DNA from: Thermococcus sp. M39
GTDB lineage: Archaea; Methanobacteriota_B; Thermococci; Thermococcales; Thermococcaceae
Length of the DNA: 64,000 bases
Direction of reading: 5' to 3'
Assembly (NCBI RefSeq): GCF_012027325.1
Contig: NZ_SNUG01000001.1
Coordinates: 434,001 to 498,000 of the forward strand
The translations under genes were made by a program, and so were the position numbers. How positions within the stretch are numbered: position 1 is the stretch's first letter; every line of letters starts with the position of its first letter. Below the pieces are notes generated by a model. That model saw only the letters and a list, made by a program, of their open reading frames with translations, was not told the origin of the DNA and did no database searches. Shown in pieces: positions 2,905-47,133 of the stretch.

Positions 2905-3135
2905 ATGGCGGAAAGACCACTTGATGTTATACACAGGTCATTGGACAAGGATGTTTTGGTAATCCTTAAGAAGGGATTCGAGTTTAGAGGCAGGCTTATC
3001 GGTTATGACATTCACCTGAATGTTGTCCTTGCAGACGCTCAGCTTATTGAGGGCGGCGAGGTAACGAAAAAATATGGCAAGATCGTAATTAGAGGAGACA
3101 ATGTGTTGGCTATTTCACCAGTAGAAACTGAGTGA
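2905..3135 (+). CDS. Sm-like RNA-binding protein (Lsm)
   Basis: A 76-residue archaeal Sm protein. Family knowledge says it forms a heptameric ring that binds U-rich RNA. The Sm1 region (VLVILKKGFEFRGRLIGYD followed by NVVLADA) and the Sm2 motif (IVIRGDNVLAIS) are both plain. The ATG follows GGAGGGAAGAGAA. The gene lies 11 bases before L37e, a pairing conserved in archaea, which suggests co-expression with ribosomal protein production. Confidence 0.95.
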   Translation: MAERPLDVIHRSLDKDVLVILKKGFEFRGRLIGYDIHLNVVLADAQLIEGGEVTKKYGKIVIRGDNVLAISPVETE

Positions 3136-3146
3136 GGTGATTCTCG

Positions 3147-3335
3147 GTGGGAAGCGGAACAGCACCCCATGGAAAGAGGAATAGGACTCCTACTCACATA
3201 AAGTGTAGAAGATGTGGAAGAAAAGCCTACAACATTAGAAAAGGCTACTGCGCTGCTTGTGGCTTTGGAAGGAGTAGAAGATTAAGGAAGTACAGCTGGT
3301 CAAAGAAGTGGAAGAAAGCTAAGAACGTCCACTGA
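3147..3335 (+). CDS. rpl37e: ribosomal protein L37e
   Basis: A 62-residue, very basic zinc-ribbon protein of the 50S subunit. Two CxxC pairs (CRRC and CAAC) form the zinc site and the C-terminus is Lys/Arg/Trp rich ([13 protein letters not shown]). The start is a GTG giving [12 protein letters not shown], the conserved N-terminus, with GAGGTGA upstream. It is the second gene of the Lsm operon and ends in a T-rich tract. Confidence 0.96.
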
Positions 3336-3356
3336 TTTCTTTTTTATTTTGCTTTT
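3336..3356 (+). terminator. T-rich terminator after L37e
   Basis: Directly after the TGA stop the plus strand reads TTTCTTTTTTATTTTGCTTT. Oligo-T runs of this kind act as intrinsic terminators for archaeal RNA polymerase. There is no hairpin. Confidence 0.5.
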
Positions 3357-3388
3357 CTGCACTAGGTTAATTTGCTAGGGATAACTCT

Positions 3389-3395
3389 ATAAATC
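3389..3395 (+). promoter_or_regulatory. TATA box of a probably leaderless gene
   Basis: TATAAAT lies about 25 bases before the ATG at 3416, so transcription should begin at or next to the start codon. No Shine-Dalgarno is visible between the two. Confidence 0.5.
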
Positions 3396-3415
3396 TTTGC
3401 TTTGAATTCTAAACT

Positions 3416-4420
3416 ATGAGTGCAAAAGATGACATTTTGAGCTATTTAAAATCAAAAGGACATGATGGTGCTTTGCAGAGTGAGCTGTATAATCTAGGCT
3501 ATTCCCGCTCAACAATTGCTGAAGCCTTAGAAAGTCTTGAAGAAGAGAATCTTATTGTGAAAAAGAACATTGGGAAAAAAGCATACAGAATATGGATCAT
3601 TGATGAGGCACCTTTTCCCGTTAAAGGCACTCTCCGACTTGGGCTTCTAAGAGCTGTTGAATATCCTCATGCTCTTCTGACAGCTCATGATTTAAAGGAA
3701 AAGTATAATGTTCGAGTCTTAATTTACGACTCAGCCCTTGAGCTTACAAATGCCCTGGCGATAGGAAAGGTCGATTTAGCATGTTCACCGCTAATTACTC
3801 AAATCCTTTATGCTTTGTTAATGAAAAGCATTAAAATTGTTTCTGGCTGTGGATTTGCTGGCAGTGGACTTGTTATGAGAGGAGAGCTCAAGGAAGGGAG
3901 AACCATTGCTTCTTCTGAGCTTTCTACGATGGAAACTATGCTGAAGCAGTTCCTTGAGAGAAAAGGCTTGGAGAATATCAAAGTAACGTATTTTAAGAAT
4001 CCTGAGACTGCTGTGGAGTCCCTCCTTAGAGGCGAGACTGATGGGTTGAGTATTTGGGAGCCATATCTCAGCCTACTTAAAAAGAAGGGCTTCAATGTCT
4101 ATCATTACTCTGATTATTTTGGAAAGTATCCCTGCTGCGCGTTGGGAGTTAATTTGAGCTTTTTAAATGTTAACAGGACTCTTTTCGATGAGTTTTTTGA
4201 AAAATTTAAGTACAACACTGAAAACTTAGAGAGAAGAAAGGAGGAAGCCATAAAGCTCATTGTTAAGATTATGGGCTTTAAAGAGGAGCTTGTAATGGAG
4301 AGCTTTGGAGGATTTATCTATGATTATAAACTCACAAAAAAGCAAGTTGAAGAGATGCTAAACAGATTTGGTCTCAAAGTGTTCAACCTTGAAAAGCTTT
4401 TCTTATCGCAAGATTTTTAA
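3416..4420 (+). CDS. winged-helix regulator fused to an NMT1/SsuA-like substrate-binding domain
   Basis: A 334-residue soluble protein with no signal peptide. Residues 1-60 form a winged helix (SELYNLGYSRSTIAEALESL, then a wing with VKKNIGKKAYRIW). Residues from about 70 resemble periplasmic binding proteins of the NMT1/THI5/SsuA kind: LRLGLLRAVEYPHAL, VDLACSPLITQILYAL, then SIWEPYLSLLKKKG. This layout implies a one-component sensor in which a transporter-type ligand domain controls DNA binding. The ligand is unknown; family relatives bind thiamine precursors, sulfonates or similar small molecules. It stands alone, with no transporter genes beside it, and appears leaderless. Confidence 0.7.
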   Translation: MSAKDDILSYLKSKGHDGALQSELYNLGYSRSTIAEALESLEEENLIVKKNIGKKAYRIWIIDEAPFPVKGTLRLGLLRAVEYPHALLTAHDLKEKYNVRVLIYDSALELTNALAIGKVDLACSPLITQILYALLMKSIKIVSGCGFAGSGLVMRGELKEGRTIASSELSTMETMLKQFLERKGLENIKVTYFKNPETAVESLLRGETDGLSIWEPYLSLLKKKGFNVYHYSDYFGKYPCCALGVNLSFLNVNRTLFDEFFEKFKYNTENLERRKEEAIKLIVKIMGFKEELVMESFGGFIYDYKLTKKQVEEMLNRFGLKVFNLEKLFLSQDF

Positions 4421-4466
4421 CTTCTATTCTCTTTTTATCGCTTAGACATTCATCTAAGTGATCACT

Positions 4467-5831
4467 ATGGACGGCGAATTAAGGAAGAAGCTGTGGGAGC
4501 TTGCATGGCCAGCAATATTAGCAAACATCTCCCAAACCCTAGTCAACTTAGTTGACATGATAATGGTAGGACAGCTAGGCTCTCTGGCAATTGCAAGTGT
4601 TGGCTTAGGTGGGCAGTTCGCATGGTTTATGATGCCTCTGATGTTTGCAGTTTCCGCTGGCGTCTTGGCCTTAGTTGCTCGATTTATCGGTGCCAAAAAT
4701 TACGAAATGGCAAACTTGACACTGGAGCAGGGAATTTATCTTGCGTTTCTCATGGGAATACCGGTTATGCTGGTCGGCTTATTCTTTGGAGATGATGCAC
4801 TTAGAATAATGGGAGCTAGTGAAGACGTAGTTAGGCTTGGTTATGAATATATTAGGATATACTTCTTATTTTACCCTATTAATTTCATGGGTTTTGCAGC
4901 TTTTTCGGCTTTGAGAGGGGCTGGTGATACAAAAACACCAATGAAGTTAAGCATTTTGATGAATGTGCTGAATGTGATTTTGAACTATCTTCTAATTTTT
5001 GGAAAATTCGGCTTTCCGAGATTAGAAGTCAAGGGAGCCGCATTGGCTTCTGGACTTTCAATTGCAGCAGCGTTTATCGTTGGTATGTTCCTCTTCTTAA
5101 GCGACAGGCTTGTTTTGAAGCTTAAACCTAGGCTTAGATTTGATATCAGCATGATTAGGAGAATCCTCAAAATTGGAATTCCAGCAACTATTGAGAGAAT
5201 TATCTTCAGCTTTTACAACTTCATTTACATAAGCATTGTTACAAGATTTGGAACGATCGCTCTAGCTGCTCATCAGGTCGGCTTGAGGGTTGAGAGCATA
5301 GCCTATATGCCAGCTTTTGGCTTTAATGTTGCCACATCAGCTTTGGTTGGGCAGAGCTTAGGTGAAGGAAATCCAGAGAAAGCTGAGAAAGTTGTATACG
5401 AGTCGTTGAAGATGGTAACCGCTTTCATGAGCGTCATGGCTGTGGTTTTGATTGCTTTTCCAAAATACCTTGTTATGCCTTTCATAACAAAAAGCGACCC
5501 CAATTATTGGCAAGTCATTCACTTGGCTGCAATTTACCTCATGATTGTAGGTATAAGTGAAATCCCGTTAGGCTGGCTCTTTGTTCTCAGCGGAGCTTTG
5601 AGAGGTGCAGGAGATACGAGGAGTCCCATGTATGTAACTGCAGTTAGCAAATTGCTCTTTAGAATCCTCCCAGCTTATCTTTTGGGATTTGGATTTACAA
5701 TAGGTTCATTCCGCTTTGAGGGGCTTGGCGTTATTGCCGCTTGGATCGCAATGAGCCTTGAAACGTTTACAAGTGCAGCAATGTTTTGGTGGATATTCAA
5801 GAGGGGGAAGTGGAAGTACATAAAAGTTTGA
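4467..5831 (+). CDS. MATE family multidrug/cation exporter
   Basis: An integral membrane protein of about 454 residues with twelve predicted helices in two halves. The duplicated signature FSALRGAGDTKTPM in the first half and LSGALRGAGDTRSPM in the second is typical of MATE exporters, which use H+ or Na+ gradients to expel organic cations. The N-terminal ELAWPAILANISQTLVNLVD is also characteristic. The ATG at 4467 is preferred because GTGATC sits four bases before it; a GTG at 4458 would add three residues. Confidence 0.93.
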   Translation: MDGELRKKLWELAWPAILANISQTLVNLVDMIMVGQLGSLAIASVGLGGQFAWFMMPLMFAVSAGVLALVARFIGAKNYEMANLTLEQGIYLAFLMGIPVMLVGLFFGDDALRIMGASEDVVRLGYEYIRIYFLFYPINFMGFAAFSALRGAGDTKTPMKLSILMNVLNVILNYLLIFGKFGFPRLEVKGAALASGLSIAAAFIVGMFLFLSDRLVLKLKPRLRFDISMIRRILKIGIPATIERIIFSFYNFIYISIVTRFGTIALAAHQVGLRVESIAYMPAFGFNVATSALVGQSLGEGNPEKAEKVVYESLKMVTAFMSVMAVVLIAFPKYLVMPFITKSDPNYWQVIHLAAIYLMIVGISEIPLGWLFVLSGALRGAGDTRSPMYVTAVSKLLFRILPAYLLGFGFTIGSFRFEGLGVIAAWIAMSLETFTSAAMFWWIFKRGKWKYIKV

Positions 5832-40763: not shown

Positions 40764-41288
40764 TCAGAAGTTGAAGTTTATGTCTTTCATCAGTTGGTCG
40801 TAGAATTCTTCTTTATAAATGTCTGGATAGCGCATTATATACTCATATTGCTTTTTGAGGATATTGTAGTGGTTGTTTTCCATATCCGCAAGCATTTCTA
40901 GGAGAAGTTTGGTCTTCTCGGTGGCAGCATATCTGGCAAGCTCTTTGTAGAGTTTTTCACTAACAAGTTCGGCTTGCATAGCAATTTCATAAACCTCATC
41001 GAGATTTACATCGGGCTTGGTTATAGCTTCAGCCATTTTCTCAGCTATAACCTTGAACTCTGCCATAACCTCTGTCTTTATCTTTTTAGGTTCAACATTT
41101 TCTCCCTTGAGCTTCTCAGCAATCTTCCCTATTATCTCTCTGTGCTTGTCCTCCTCTCTCGCCAAGAAGAGAAGCTCATCCTTTATGATATCGCTCTTCA
41201 CAATGGAAGCGAGCTTCTCATAAGCCTTCTTGGCCCTAATTTCGGAGTTCATAGCTATTTCAAAAACTTCCTTGTCAGTTATCTCCAT
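40764..41288 (-). CDS. ferritin-like (rubrerythrin-type) diiron protein
   Basis: A 174-residue four-helix protein with two repeats of the diiron motif: EIAMNSEIRAKKAYEKL with LAREEDKHREII, and EIAMQAELVSEKLYKEL with LADMENNHYNIL. This supplies the Glu and ExxH ligands. It has no rubredoxin domain, so electrons must come from a separate carrier. It may act in peroxide reduction or iron handling. The ATG at 41288 follows GGTGGTTTCC. It is convergent with the peroxiredoxin gene. Confidence 0.85.
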   Translation of the reverse strand: MEITDKEVFEIAMNSEIRAKKAYEKLASIVKSDIIKDELLFLAREEDKHREIIGKIAEKLKGENVEPKKIKTEVMAEFKVIAEKMAEAITKPDVNLDEVYEIAMQAELVSEKLYKELARYAATEKTKLLLEMLADMENNHYNILKKQYEYIMRYPDIYKEEFYDQLMKDINFNF

Positions 41289-41425
41289 GGAAACCACCAT
41301 AGTTAATTTCTCGTCATGATTATTAACGTTTTCGGAACTGTTTGGATTGGAGACTGCATACTATATGCTGATCTCTGTCCGAAATGGTTATATTTTCTGG
41401 GAGGGCAATCTAGTAAGGTGGTTTT

Positions 41426-41843: not shown

Positions 41844-43076
41844 ATGCCAAGGGTCTGGATTGAAAAAATTATTGATGAACCTGAGCTTTATCTGCTAAGG
41901 GTTGACGACGACCAAATAAGATACTTCGAGGCAACTTGGGAAATTTCAGAAGGGATAACTTACAATGCTTACCTCTTAAAGCTAGATGGTGCTGTTGTGC
42001 TCTTTGATGGTTGGAAAAAGAACTATGCTAAAGAGTTTATAGAAGCACTTTCAAAGCTTGTTGATCCCAAAGAGATAACGCACATAATAGTTCATCACAC
42101 TGAGCCTGATCACAGTGGTGCTCTTCCTGAAGTCCTTGAGCTTAATGGCTATAAAGCTCAGCTTATAGGTACGAGCTTTGCAAAGAGGCTTCTTGAGGCT
42201 TTTTATGGACCAAAAGTTGTTGAGAACTTTCATGCAGTCAAAGATGGCGAAGAAATGAAAATAGGTGGAAAAACCTTCCGCTTCATTACGGTTCCATGGC
42301 TTCACTGGCCTGATACAATGATTACGTATATAGTCGAGAATGGTTTGATGTTCAGCTGTGACGCTGGTGGTGGTTACTCTATCCCAGAAGCTATAGATGA
42401 CAGCAATGAAGAAGTTGTTCAAAAGTACCTCCCCTACGTTACAAAGTACATAGTCACTGTCATCGGCCATTATCACAAGTACATTGTCCAAAACCTAGAG
42501 AAGATTAAGAAGCTTGGAATACTCGAAGAAACGAAAATGATTCTCCCAGGACATGGTCTCATATGGAGGAAGAATCCAAAAAGAATTTTTGAATACTATG
42601 AAGCCGTTGGAGCTGGAATTCCAAAGAAAGGCAAAATCCTTGTGATTTATGACTCAATGTATGGCTTTGTTGAGAGGGCTGTTGAAATAGCTTTAGATGA
42701 GCTGAAAAGGCATGGCTATAATCCAGTTGTGTATAAGTTCACTGATAAAGAAGCTCCAGCAGTCAGTGATATTCTCGGTGAGGTTCCAGATAGTGAGGCA
42801 CTTATAATTGGGGCATCAACATATGAGGCAAACATCCATCCAAGAGTCCGCTACGTCCTCTATGAAATAGTTGATAAGGCAAACTACGAGAAGCCCGTGC
42901 TGATTCTGGGTGCATATGGCTGGGGAGGTGTCGCTGGGAGAGAAATTGAGACGATGATAATGAGGAGCAAGTTTGACCATGTTGACACAATTGAAGCTAG
43001 GGGAAGAACAACTAAGGAAGATGAGGAAAGGATTAGAGAGGGAGTCAGAAAGCTCCTTGAGAGGCTGAATAAATGA
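41844..43076 (+). CDS. fprA: flavodiiron protein (FprA-like)
   Basis: A 410-residue enzyme. The N-terminal lactamase-like diiron domain carries HHTEPDHSG (H85, E87, D89, H90) and VIGHYHKY and LPGHGLIW further ligands. The C-terminal flavodoxin domain starts near residue 263 ([20 protein letters not shown]) and binds FMN. It reduces O2 to water, or NO, with electrons from rubredoxin. It overlaps the NROR start by four bases (ATGA), so the two are co-translated. Confidence 0.95.
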
Positions 43077-44119
43077 GGCTCATTATAGTCGGAAACGGTA
43101 TTGCAGGAGTTACGCTTGCGAAAGAGCTCTCAAGGGAGTTTGACATAACCATAGTTGATAAGGAAAACCTCCCATACTACAGCAAGCCAATGCTGAGTCA
43201 TTATATAGCTGGCTTCATTGACGAAAAGGCTCTTTTTCCATATTCTTTTGAGTGGTATGAGAAGAAGGGTATAGAACTTAAGCTTGGAGTTGAGGCTAGG
43301 GTAATAGACAGGGCAAGGAAAAGGCTGATAACCTCCGAAGGGGAGCTTGATTATGATATTTTGGTTCTTGCAATGGGAGCAAAGGCAAGAGAGCTTATGA
43401 TGGAAGGCAAAGAGTACTTGAAGGTACTGAGAACGTTTGAAGACGCAAAAGCGATAAGAGAAGCTCTTGAGCTTGCAGGAAACCTTGCAAAGGCGGGCTA
43501 TGATGTAGGACTCATTCATAGGAGAAATACAATTCTTGGCCTTGATGAGGAGCTGAGCAGAATATTAAAAGAGAGGCTTGAAGATGTCGGAATTAAGTTT
43601 CATCTCAATACAAATTTAGTAAAAGCTAATGAAAACGGCGTTTTTACAGATAAGGGTTACATTGAGGGGAAGCTTAAAGTGTGTGCTTTTGGTATAGTTC
43701 CAAACAAGGAAATTGCAATAAGGAGCGGAATACATGCTGGGGGAGGTATTCTGATTGATGAGCAGTTCAGAACCTCAGCAAGGGATGTATATGCAATTGG
43801 GGACTGCGCCGAGTATAATGGTATAATTTGTGGAACTGCCAGAGCTTCTATGGAACATGCAAGAGTCCTGGCAAATCTGCTTAGAGGAAAAGAGGACAGA
43901 TATAATTTTGAGTTTCGCTCCTCAGTTTTTAGACTCGCTGATTTTTCAATTACAGTAATTGGAAAAATTAAAGGATTAGGGCGTTGGATAAATGAAAACA
44001 TCAAAATATTCACCGCTCAAGGGAAAATCTTGGGTGCAGTAGTTTTTGATGACTTAAAAACTGCCATGAAACTTGAAAAATCCATCAAGACTGGAGCAAA
44101 CCTTAATGAGCTCTTATAG
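43073..44119 (+). CDS. NAD(P)H:rubredoxin oxidoreductase with a missing nucleotide-binding loop
   Basis: A 348-residue FAD enzyme of the NROR family. The FAD site ([14 protein letters not shown]), the [14 protein letters not shown] signature and [14 protein letters not shown] are intact. The second Rossmann motif should lie between [13 protein letters not shown] and [11 protein letters not shown]. The homologue from Pyrococcus has about 16 more residues there, with a GGGFIGLE-type loop. Here the sequence jumps straight across at residues 131-134, about 43463-43474, in frame. Without that loop NAD(P)H binding should be lost. The gene is directly coupled to the flavodiiron gene. Confidence 0.85.
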
Positions 44120-44188: not shown

Positions 44189-44234
44189 TTCTTTTTTGAA
44201 AATGTATTGAAACGATTCGATGGAGGTGAACAAT

Positions 44235-44750
44235 ATGGTTGTGAAAAGGGAAATGACAAAGAAGTTTTTGAGCGAAGCTTATGCAGGTGAAAGCCAAGCC
44301 CATATGAAGTACCTCATTTTTGCAGAGGTTGCTGAAAAAGAAGGATTTCCAAACATCGCAAAGCTCTTCAGGGCTATAGCATTTGCTGAACTGGTTCATG
44401 CTAAGAACCATCTCAAGGCCCTTGGAAATGTGAAAGATACAGTTGAAAATCTCCAAATGGCTATAGATGGCGAAACCTTTGAAGTTGAGGAGATGTATCC
44501 AGCTTATAAGGCTGTTGCAGAATTGCAAGGAGAAAAGGAAGCTGTTAGGAGTACACACTATGCGTTAGAGGCAGAAAAGATTCATGCTGAACTCTACAAG
44601 AAAGCGAAAGAGCTTGCAGAGCAAAAGAAGGATATGGAAATTAAAAAGATCTACATATGCCCTGTCTGTGGTTACACAGCATTAGATGACGCTCCAGAAA
44701 AGTGTCCGGTTTGTGGTATAACAAAAGAAAAGTTTGTTGTCTTTGAGTGA
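44235..44750 (+). CDS. rbr: rubrerythrin
   Basis: A 171-residue peroxidase. The diiron domain has FLSEAYAGESQAHMKY, AFAELVHAKNH and ALEAEKIHAELY. The C-terminal rubredoxin-like domain has CPVCGYTALDDAPEKCPVCG with four cysteines. It reduces H2O2 to water with electrons from rubredoxin. The ATG at 44235 follows GGAGGTGAACA; the frame's earlier ATG overlaps that site. Confidence 0.97.
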   Translation: MVVKREMTKKFLSEAYAGESQAHMKYLIFAEVAEKEGFPNIAKLFRAIAFAELVHAKNHLKALGNVKDTVENLQMAIDGETFEVEEMYPAYKAVAELQGEKEAVRSTHYALEAEKIHAELYKKAKELAEQKKDMEIKKIYICPVCGYTALDDAPEKCPVCGITKEKFVVFE

Positions 44751-44773: not shown

Positions 44774-44792
44774 AAGTTTGATACACAAACTT
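44774..44792 (+). promoter_or_regulatory. perfect inverted repeat at the rubredoxin/SOR promoter
   Basis: AAGTTTG and CAAACTT flank ATACA in a perfect 7-5-7 inverted repeat. The right arm runs into the TATA box (TTTATAA, 44791-44797). Protein binding here would directly affect promoter opening. Confidence 0.5.
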
Positions 44793-44832
44793 TATAAGGT
44801 TGATCTAACAATATTAGAGTGAGGTTTGTAAG

Positions 44833-44994
44833 ATGGCAAAGTGGAAATGTATAGTTTGTGGATATATCTACGATGAGGAGGAAGGCGACTCAGACAATGG
44901 AATAGCTCCGGGAACAAAGTTTGAAGACTTGCCGGATGATTGGGTCTGCCCGCTCTGTGGAGCTGGAAAAGACATGTTTGAGAAAATAGAGTGA
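44833..44994 (+). CDS. rub: rubredoxin
   Basis: A 53-residue electron carrier. The iron is held by C6, C9, C39 and C42 in [10 protein letters not shown] and [13 protein letters not shown]. It follows a GTAAG leader and lies two bases before the superoxide reductase frame. In Thermococcales it passes electrons to superoxide reductase, rubrerythrin and the flavodiiron protein. Confidence 0.97.
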
Positions 44995-45004
44995 GGTGAT
45001 GAGG

Positions 45005-45352
45005 ATGTTGAGCAAAACTATAGCTTCTGGAGATTGGAAAGGAGAGAAGCACGTTCCAGTTATAGAGTACAAGAAGGATGGAGATTTGCTTGAGATTGAG
45101 GTTAGTGTTGGAAAAGAAATTCCACACCCAAACACACCAGAGCACCACATAGCTTGGATTGAGCTCTACTTCCACCCAGAGGGAGAGAAGTTCCCAATTA
45201 TGATTGGCAGAGTAGCATTTACCAACCACAACGACCCACTCACTGAGCCAAGGGCAAAGTTCTACATCAGAACAAGCAAGAAGGGCAAGCTCTACGCTTT
45301 AAGCTACTGTAACATTCACGGCCTCTGGGAGAACAGTGTTGACGTTGAGTGA
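45005..45352 (+). CDS. sor: superoxide reductase
   Basis: A 115-residue neelaredoxin-type enzyme that reduces superoxide to H2O2 without making O2. The iron ligands are in place: E14 and H16 (GEKHVP), H41, H47 or H48 (PHPNTPEHH), C102 and H105 (YCNIHGLWE). It is about nine residues shorter than the Pyrococcus protein I recall, in a surface loop near NHNDPLTEP. The ATG at 45005 follows GAGGTGATGAGG. It shares the operon with rubredoxin. Confidence 0.96.
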   Translation: MLSKTIASGDWKGEKHVPVIEYKKDGDLLEIEVSVGKEIPHPNTPEHHIAWIELYFHPEGEKFPIMIGRVAFTNHNDPLTEPRAKFYIRTSKKGKLYALSYCNIHGLWENSVDVE

Positions 45353-46135: not shown

Positions 46136-46320
46136 GTTCCAGAACTTGATGAGGAACTTCCCCTCGAAAGAATCAAGGATTTTCCTTTGAGGAACTTCTA
46201 GGAATGGCAATAAAATCTGAGATGAGGGCAAGGAAATTTTTATGAAAGTTTGGCTGTAAGAACATTGATATTGAAGCATTGAAGGAGAAAATAGATTACA
46301 GAAAAAAGAATCAAAGCTCG
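46136..46320 (+). pseudogene. decayed ferritin-like (rubrerythrin-type) gene
   Basis: Just after the second DUF59 gene the three frames can be stitched into the start of a diiron protein. Frame one reads VPELDEELPLERIKD. Adding one T in the T-run near 46180 continues as SFEELLGMAIKSEMRARKF. Removing one T near 46240 continues as YESLAV, and a third frame gives NIDIEALKEKIDY. At least three frameshifts and a truncated end point to a dead gene. It runs into the convergent ferritin-like gene. Confidence 0.6.
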
Positions 46321-46610
46321 ACCTTTATACCGGTTTCCTCTTCGACTTCCTCAAAGCCTTTCTTTATGTGCTTGCCCAGTTCAGGATCGAGTTTGAGGAG
46401 CAAAGCCAAAAACTCCCCCACGTGCTCTTTCTCTTCATTAGCAACATCAAGGAAGATGTGCTTTACAGCTTCGTCATCAATCAGCTCGGCAAACTGCTCA
46501 TAGAAGTTGATAGCATCGAGCTCAGCTATAACAGCCCAGCGGAGAGCTTGTACGATTTCCTTTTTGGAGAGCTTTCCTTTGTTCATGGAAATTGGGTTCA
46601 ATCCAAGCAT
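46311..46610 (-). CDS. encapsulated-ferritin-like protein (EncFtn) without shell
   Basis: A 99-residue two-helix ferritin-like protein: ALRWAVIAELDAINFYEQF and LDVANEEKEHVGEFLALLL. E30, E60 and H63 reproduce the Glu/Glu/His spacing of the EncFtn half-site, which works as a dimer. It closely resembles the N-terminal cargo domain of the Pyrococcus furiosus encapsulin fusion, ending near GFEEVEEETGIKVEL. Here the gene stops at that point and no capsid domain follows on either strand. The ATG follows GGTGATACC. Confidence 0.8.
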   Translation of the reverse strand: MLGLNPISMNKGKLSKKEIVQALRWAVIAELDAINFYEQFAELIDDEAVKHIFLDVANEEKEHVGEFLALLLKLDPELGKHIKKGFEEVEEETGIKVEL

Positions 46611-46656: not shown

Positions 46657-47133
46657 TTAGTCAACCTCAAGGCTGAAGTCTTGATAATCCATCCATATTC
46701 CTGTCTTCATGACAGCATCGTATTGTGCTTTTAAAAGCTCGTAATGAGCTTTTTCCCTCTTAGCCAGCTCGCGGAATGTTCTTTTCACATTCTCATCCTC
46801 TGCTTTCTCAGCAGCTTTCTCGTAGAATTCCCACGTCAGCTTTTCTTGTTCTAGACCTATCTCGACGGCTTTAACTTCACTAAGCTCACCTTCGTATTTG
46901 GGCGTTAGTTTTTCAAGAATGTTTTTATCAACAGCTGGAAGTTCGCATTCCTTTACAAGCTTTTCAAAGAATTTTTCTTCAAATATATCCCAATGTTCAG
47001 CTTCCTCTCTTGCTAAAAACAGAAACATCTTTTTTGCTTTTTCATCTTTTGCTTTTATCGCCATTTCAAGATAAAACTTCAGCTCGGCTTTCTCAACTTC
47101 AAGTGCTAAAGCAAGTGCTTCGAGCTCGTTCAT
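46657..47133 (-). CDS. ferritin-like diiron protein
   Basis: A 158-residue four-helix protein with two ferritin-like halves: ALEVEKAELKFYLEMA with LAREEAEHWDIFEE, and GLEQEKLTWEFYEKAA with LAKREKAHYELLK. It resembles rubrerythrin without the rubredoxin domain. It lies 46 bases upstream of the EncFtn-like gene on the same strand, so both are probably transcribed together. The ATG follows GGTGATAAT. Confidence 0.85.
   Translation of the reverse strand: MNELEALALALEVEKAELKFYLEMAIKAKDEKAKKMFLFLAREEAEHWDIFEEKFFEKLVKECELPAVDKNILEKLTPKYEGELSEVKAVEIGLEQEKLTWEFYEKAAEKAEDENVKRTFRELAKREKAHYELLKAQYDAVMKTGIWMDYQDFSLEVD

Follow-up and report, generated by a model that had tools for sequence, protein, structure and literature searches.

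The window, a 64,000-nucleotide stretch of the Thermococcus sp. M39 genome, carries on its forward strand the genes for a flavodiiron protein (fprA), NAD(P)H:rubredoxin oxidoreductase (NROR), rubrerythrin, rubredoxin and superoxide reductase, in this order (Table 1). NROR is regarded as keeping the Thermococcales rubredoxin pool reduced for superoxide reductase, rubrerythrin and the flavodiiron protein. The fprA stop is overlapped by the NROR start (ATGA). The first-pass annotation had described the operon around NROR as intact, and fprA (410 of 410 residues), rubrerythrin, rubredoxin and superoxide reductase indeed align at full length to their congeners. A TATA-like pattern lies 5' of rubredoxin, and the sequence suggests that transcription of rubredoxin and superoxide reductase need not run through NROR. 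Judging by translations only, further rubrerythrin/ferritin-like proteins are apparently encoded around the operon on the reverse strand (40764-41300, 46311-46610 and 46657-47133). The same gene set and order are found in T. onnurineus NA1, where NROR (TON_0865) belongs to an FdpA-NROR-Rr-SOR cluster and is reported to function in superoxide reduction (PMC4463584); the TON_0865 sequence was not individually identified here.

Table 1. Coordinates of the genes and sequence features at the NROR locus of the window.
Feature	Position	Strand	Remarks
fprA, flavodiiron protein	41844..43076	+	Intact; directly 5' of NROR; ODP, Lactamase_B and Flavodoxin domains
NROR gene (NAD(P)H:rubredoxin oxidoreductase)	43073..44119	+	348 aa, short form
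Codon 101, T to M	43373..43375	+	ATG motif now A-M-G; T in all other aligned orthologues
Deletion joint GCTCTTGAGC	43463..43472	+	One surviving copy of the direct repeat flanking the missing 48 bases; from alignment with G001, G006, G003 and G005
Rubrerythrin	44232..44750	+	Intact; 172/172 residues align in congeners; C-terminal CxxC pairs
TATA-like box TTTATAAG, 5' of rubredoxin	44791..44798	+	Pattern evidence only; chance occurrences are common
Rubredoxin	44833..44994	+	Intact; PF00301 match above cut-off
Superoxide reductase	45005..45352	+	Intact; PF01880 match above cut-off

The NROR frame is open across all of its codons, with no stop through the joint region, and automatic annotation would name it a normal NROR. 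The best solved relative of its product is the P. furiosus NROR (PF1197, 1XHC; E=8e-135); the orthology extends over residues 2-338 and takes in the C-terminal PF1197-like domain. Two Pfam domains are recognized, Pyr_redox_2 and PF1197-like_C, and the C-terminal domain (PF22353) is present at full length (74.6 bits). The N-terminal FAD-binding GxGxxG-type motif is present and conserved among orthologues, and the second, C-terminal FAD-contact motif (GD region, 239-248) is conserved in the window protein as well. Missing are the second GxGxxG loop, for NAD(P)H, and its beta strand, at the place where orthologues carry ILGGGFI[A/G]. The first-pass annotation had located the loss of the glycine loop at 43455-43480 and described the Pyrococcus enzyme as about 16 residues longer; both statements are borne out by the alignment with 1XHC, which has one gap, of 16 residues with GGGFIG in the P. 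furiosus protein, at the joint. These residues are present in all 26 other Thermococcales orthologues aligned, and their absence is the one main gap of the window protein. Two near-invariant positions are also changed, T101M in the ATG motif and R224G. The NADH:rubredoxin oxidoreductase of Clostridium acetobutylicum (3KLJ) shares the NROR fold and role, but it is a distant relative and a complete enzyme. No second NROR copy was found across the window's genome (2.28 Mb in 54 contigs, 99% complete), in which the PF1197-like domain is single-copy.

In four congeners (G001, G006, G003 and G005) CTTGAGC is found at either end of the 48 bases that the window lacks. It is the sole repeat of at least 7 bases at 48-bp spacing in the NROR gene, where about 20-30 repeats of at least 7 bases occur at other spacings. 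In G001 it sits inside an imperfect 10-mer, GC[T/C]CTTGAGC, and in G004, the closest relative by NROR, the right end is one base shorter (TTGAGC). As read from the aligned sequences, the single CTTGAGC at the joint is the pattern expected of a direct-repeat deletion. The mechanism proposed in the first-pass annotation, with one copy remaining at the joint, thus stands, although the repeat is 7 bp long (imperfectly 10 bp) and not 6. The in-frame deletion would have arisen between the two copies, through slippage during replication or through recombination of the short repeats. A 116-base probe spanning the joint has a full-length match in the window only, with the locus found in six of the seven genomes of the genus and the gene missing from G002. 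Pseudogenes and gene losses caused by short direct repeats are similar in having microhomology at the joint and a relic, or no gene, in sister species; the window deletion differs from them in that it is in frame, strikes a cofactor loop and leaves an open frame.

Alternatively, the gap may be an assembly error, or a variant of the sequenced culture only, the gene of the species being intact. The joint does sit on a repeat, in a draft genome of 54 contigs. However, at 7-10 bp this repeat is much below any usual assembly word length, and the same gene is independently damaged in three sister genomes. The local sequence also seems not to be error-prone, as the undamaged neighbouring genes align at full length and the window has no ambiguous bases. 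An error or culture variant is therefore considered unlikely.

NAD(P)H flavoproteins of the NROR family need the glycine loop. In the AlphaFold2 model of the intact protein of a congener (G006), the lost residues are 131-146: helix 122-135 finishes within them, strand 137-141 and the GGG loop follow, and the first turn of helix 145-156 closes the segment. In the modelled NAD(P)H domain this part supplies the first strand and the nucleotide loop. The G006 model has a pLDDT of 91.1 and a pTM of 0.86 and lies 1.4 A from 1XHC, and the window protein, modelled from nearly the same alignment, has a pLDDT of 61.0 and a pTM of 0.53 and lies 6.7 A from it, AlphaFold2 confidence being a weak guide to stability. 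Confidence in the window model is also poor in the FAD-binding parts (33-55 and 201-255). With the first beta strand and glycine loop taken from its NAD(P)H-binding domain, the shortened NROR should not bind NAD(P)H and would probably misfold, which would leave the gene inactive or nearly so. From sequence and predicted structure together, we infer that the window NROR is inactive, and its reduction of rubredoxin with NAD(P)H is predicted to be absent. An open frame annotated as NROR is no guarantee of an NADPH-driven pathway.

The damage is not visible as a raised dN/dS. The ratio is 0.16 for NROR of the window versus G004 and 0.15-0.17 between intact genomes, and the nonsynonymous:synonymous changes on the two lineages, 12:9 in the window and 12:17 in G004, do not differ significantly (Fisher p=0.39). 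Clustering of nonsynonymous changes in the NAD(P) domain is likewise unsupported (about 4 of 12 in the window and 3 of 12 in G004, in the polarised list). As dN/dS is not raised, either the deletion is young or some constraint remains. The deletion is probably recent, and a residual or partial function of NROR may be retained.

A tree built from the neighbouring genes places the window with G002, G004 and G001 in one group, which a 100% split separates from G006, G003 and G005; within it the window pairs with G002. NROR is affected in all four genomes of the window's subclade, each differently, and is intact in all three of the sister group. In G002 (L099, 3950-4160), the gap between fprA and rubrerythrin is about 210 bp and ends in an NROR 3' relic, which has lost one base and the stop codon; the main part of the gene (about 1 kb) is gone. 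The single-contig genome G004 (L074, 2063-3154) has exchanged the first glycine of the loop (GGGFIA to DGGFIS), a form unique among the aligned orthologues, and has also changed another near-invariant G. The G001 copy, from a MAG, carries a frameshift at codon 29-30, which is possibly an error.

Across 74 good Thermococcales genomes, a long NROR is found in 42 (the window counted), none in 28 and broken copies in 4, so that about two fifths of the good genomes of the order have no NROR or a broken one. The forms of damage vary: G059, a complete genome, has a multi-stop pseudogene; in G056 the C-terminal half contains a frame change and stops; G046 is without roughly the first 139 codons; and in G119 the gene is split immediately 5' of the glycine loop (L098, from about 2430 onward; L085, 1-130). 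Superoxide reductase and rubredoxin are both kept in 23 of the 28 genomes without NROR, and therefore another donor must exist in those. NROR is thus dispensable in nature. For T. gammatolerans, a superoxide reductase but no rubredoxin has been reported (PMC2718504). The end of the N-terminal half of the split G119 gene resembles the end of an IS200/IS605-type insertion sequence. A copy lacking codons of about 100-254, in frame, is seen in G043, a MAG (L080, 1261-1890).

It is most likely that the window carries a recently inactivated NROR in a lineage that is shedding this gene, with the defence proteins fed by another donor. The window deletion would be one step in a subclade-wide loss of NROR, while the flavodiiron protein, rubrerythrin, rubredoxin and superoxide reductase would stay, their electrons arriving by another route. 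Another donor and recent damage had been offered in the first-pass annotation as an either/or; the comparison suggests both, with damage or loss throughout the subclade and many Thermococcales that have rubredoxin and superoxide reductase without NROR. The type of event, short-repeat deletion and gene decay, is ordinary. The setting is informative: NROR loss recurs and the dependent oxygen-defence proteins are kept, so that NROR is caught mid-loss in one subclade while its partners mostly stay across the order.

A short NROR could instead have been repurposed, its FAD and C-terminal domains still working but drawing electrons from a source other than NAD(P)H, such as ferredoxin or the flavodiiron protein encoded next to it, and the loop lost once it was no longer used. 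The open frame, the conservation of the remainder of the window protein and the dN/dS of about 0.16 are in line with this, as are the independently damaged loop in the otherwise complete protein of the sister species G004 and the in-frame G043 copy. However, the G043 deletion takes part of the FAD domain as well, the drop in model confidence in the window protein extends to its FAD-binding parts, the near-invariant T101 and R224 are changed, and the sister genome G002 has lost NROR outright. Repurposing of the window protein is accordingly held to be improbable. Little weight is also given to a broader version, in which NROR of the subclade as a whole is now an NAD(P)H-independent FAD protein that supplies rubredoxin with electrons taken from another donor, the loop having been disabled twice (by the window deletion and by GGG to DGG in G004) with the rest under purifying selection. 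That the deletion is tolerated and the window enzyme still uses NAD(P)H is scarcely credible: there is no visible relaxation of purifying selection, but the deletion takes out the strand and loop that form the nucleotide-binding core in the NROR family, every aligned orthologue except those of the window and G004 retains the loop, and the window model collapses.

Under the preferred explanation, an inactivated NROR in a lineage losing it, the window cell probably feeds its oxygen defence from a source other than NROR. Candidates for the replacement donor are ferredoxin and a second NAD(P)H flavoprotein, of the persulfide/CoA-disulfide-reductase type. In T. kodakarensis, the ferredoxin Fd-3 co-purifies with superoxide reductase (PMC6401487). 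A persulfide-reductase-type flavoprotein, a relative of 6PFZ that shares about 82% identity with a protein encoded in the window's genome, is encoded directly 3' of superoxide reductase in five of the nine genomes of one NROR-less genus. These five genomes give positional support for this gene as an NROR replacement, which is not seen elsewhere. The in vivo electron donor of the superoxide reductase pathway becomes a testable question. The order rubredoxin, superoxide reductase, persulfide/CoA-disulfide-reductase-type flavoprotein can be followed in L102 (G007) at 3455-4962 and in L103 (G029) at 3110-4619.
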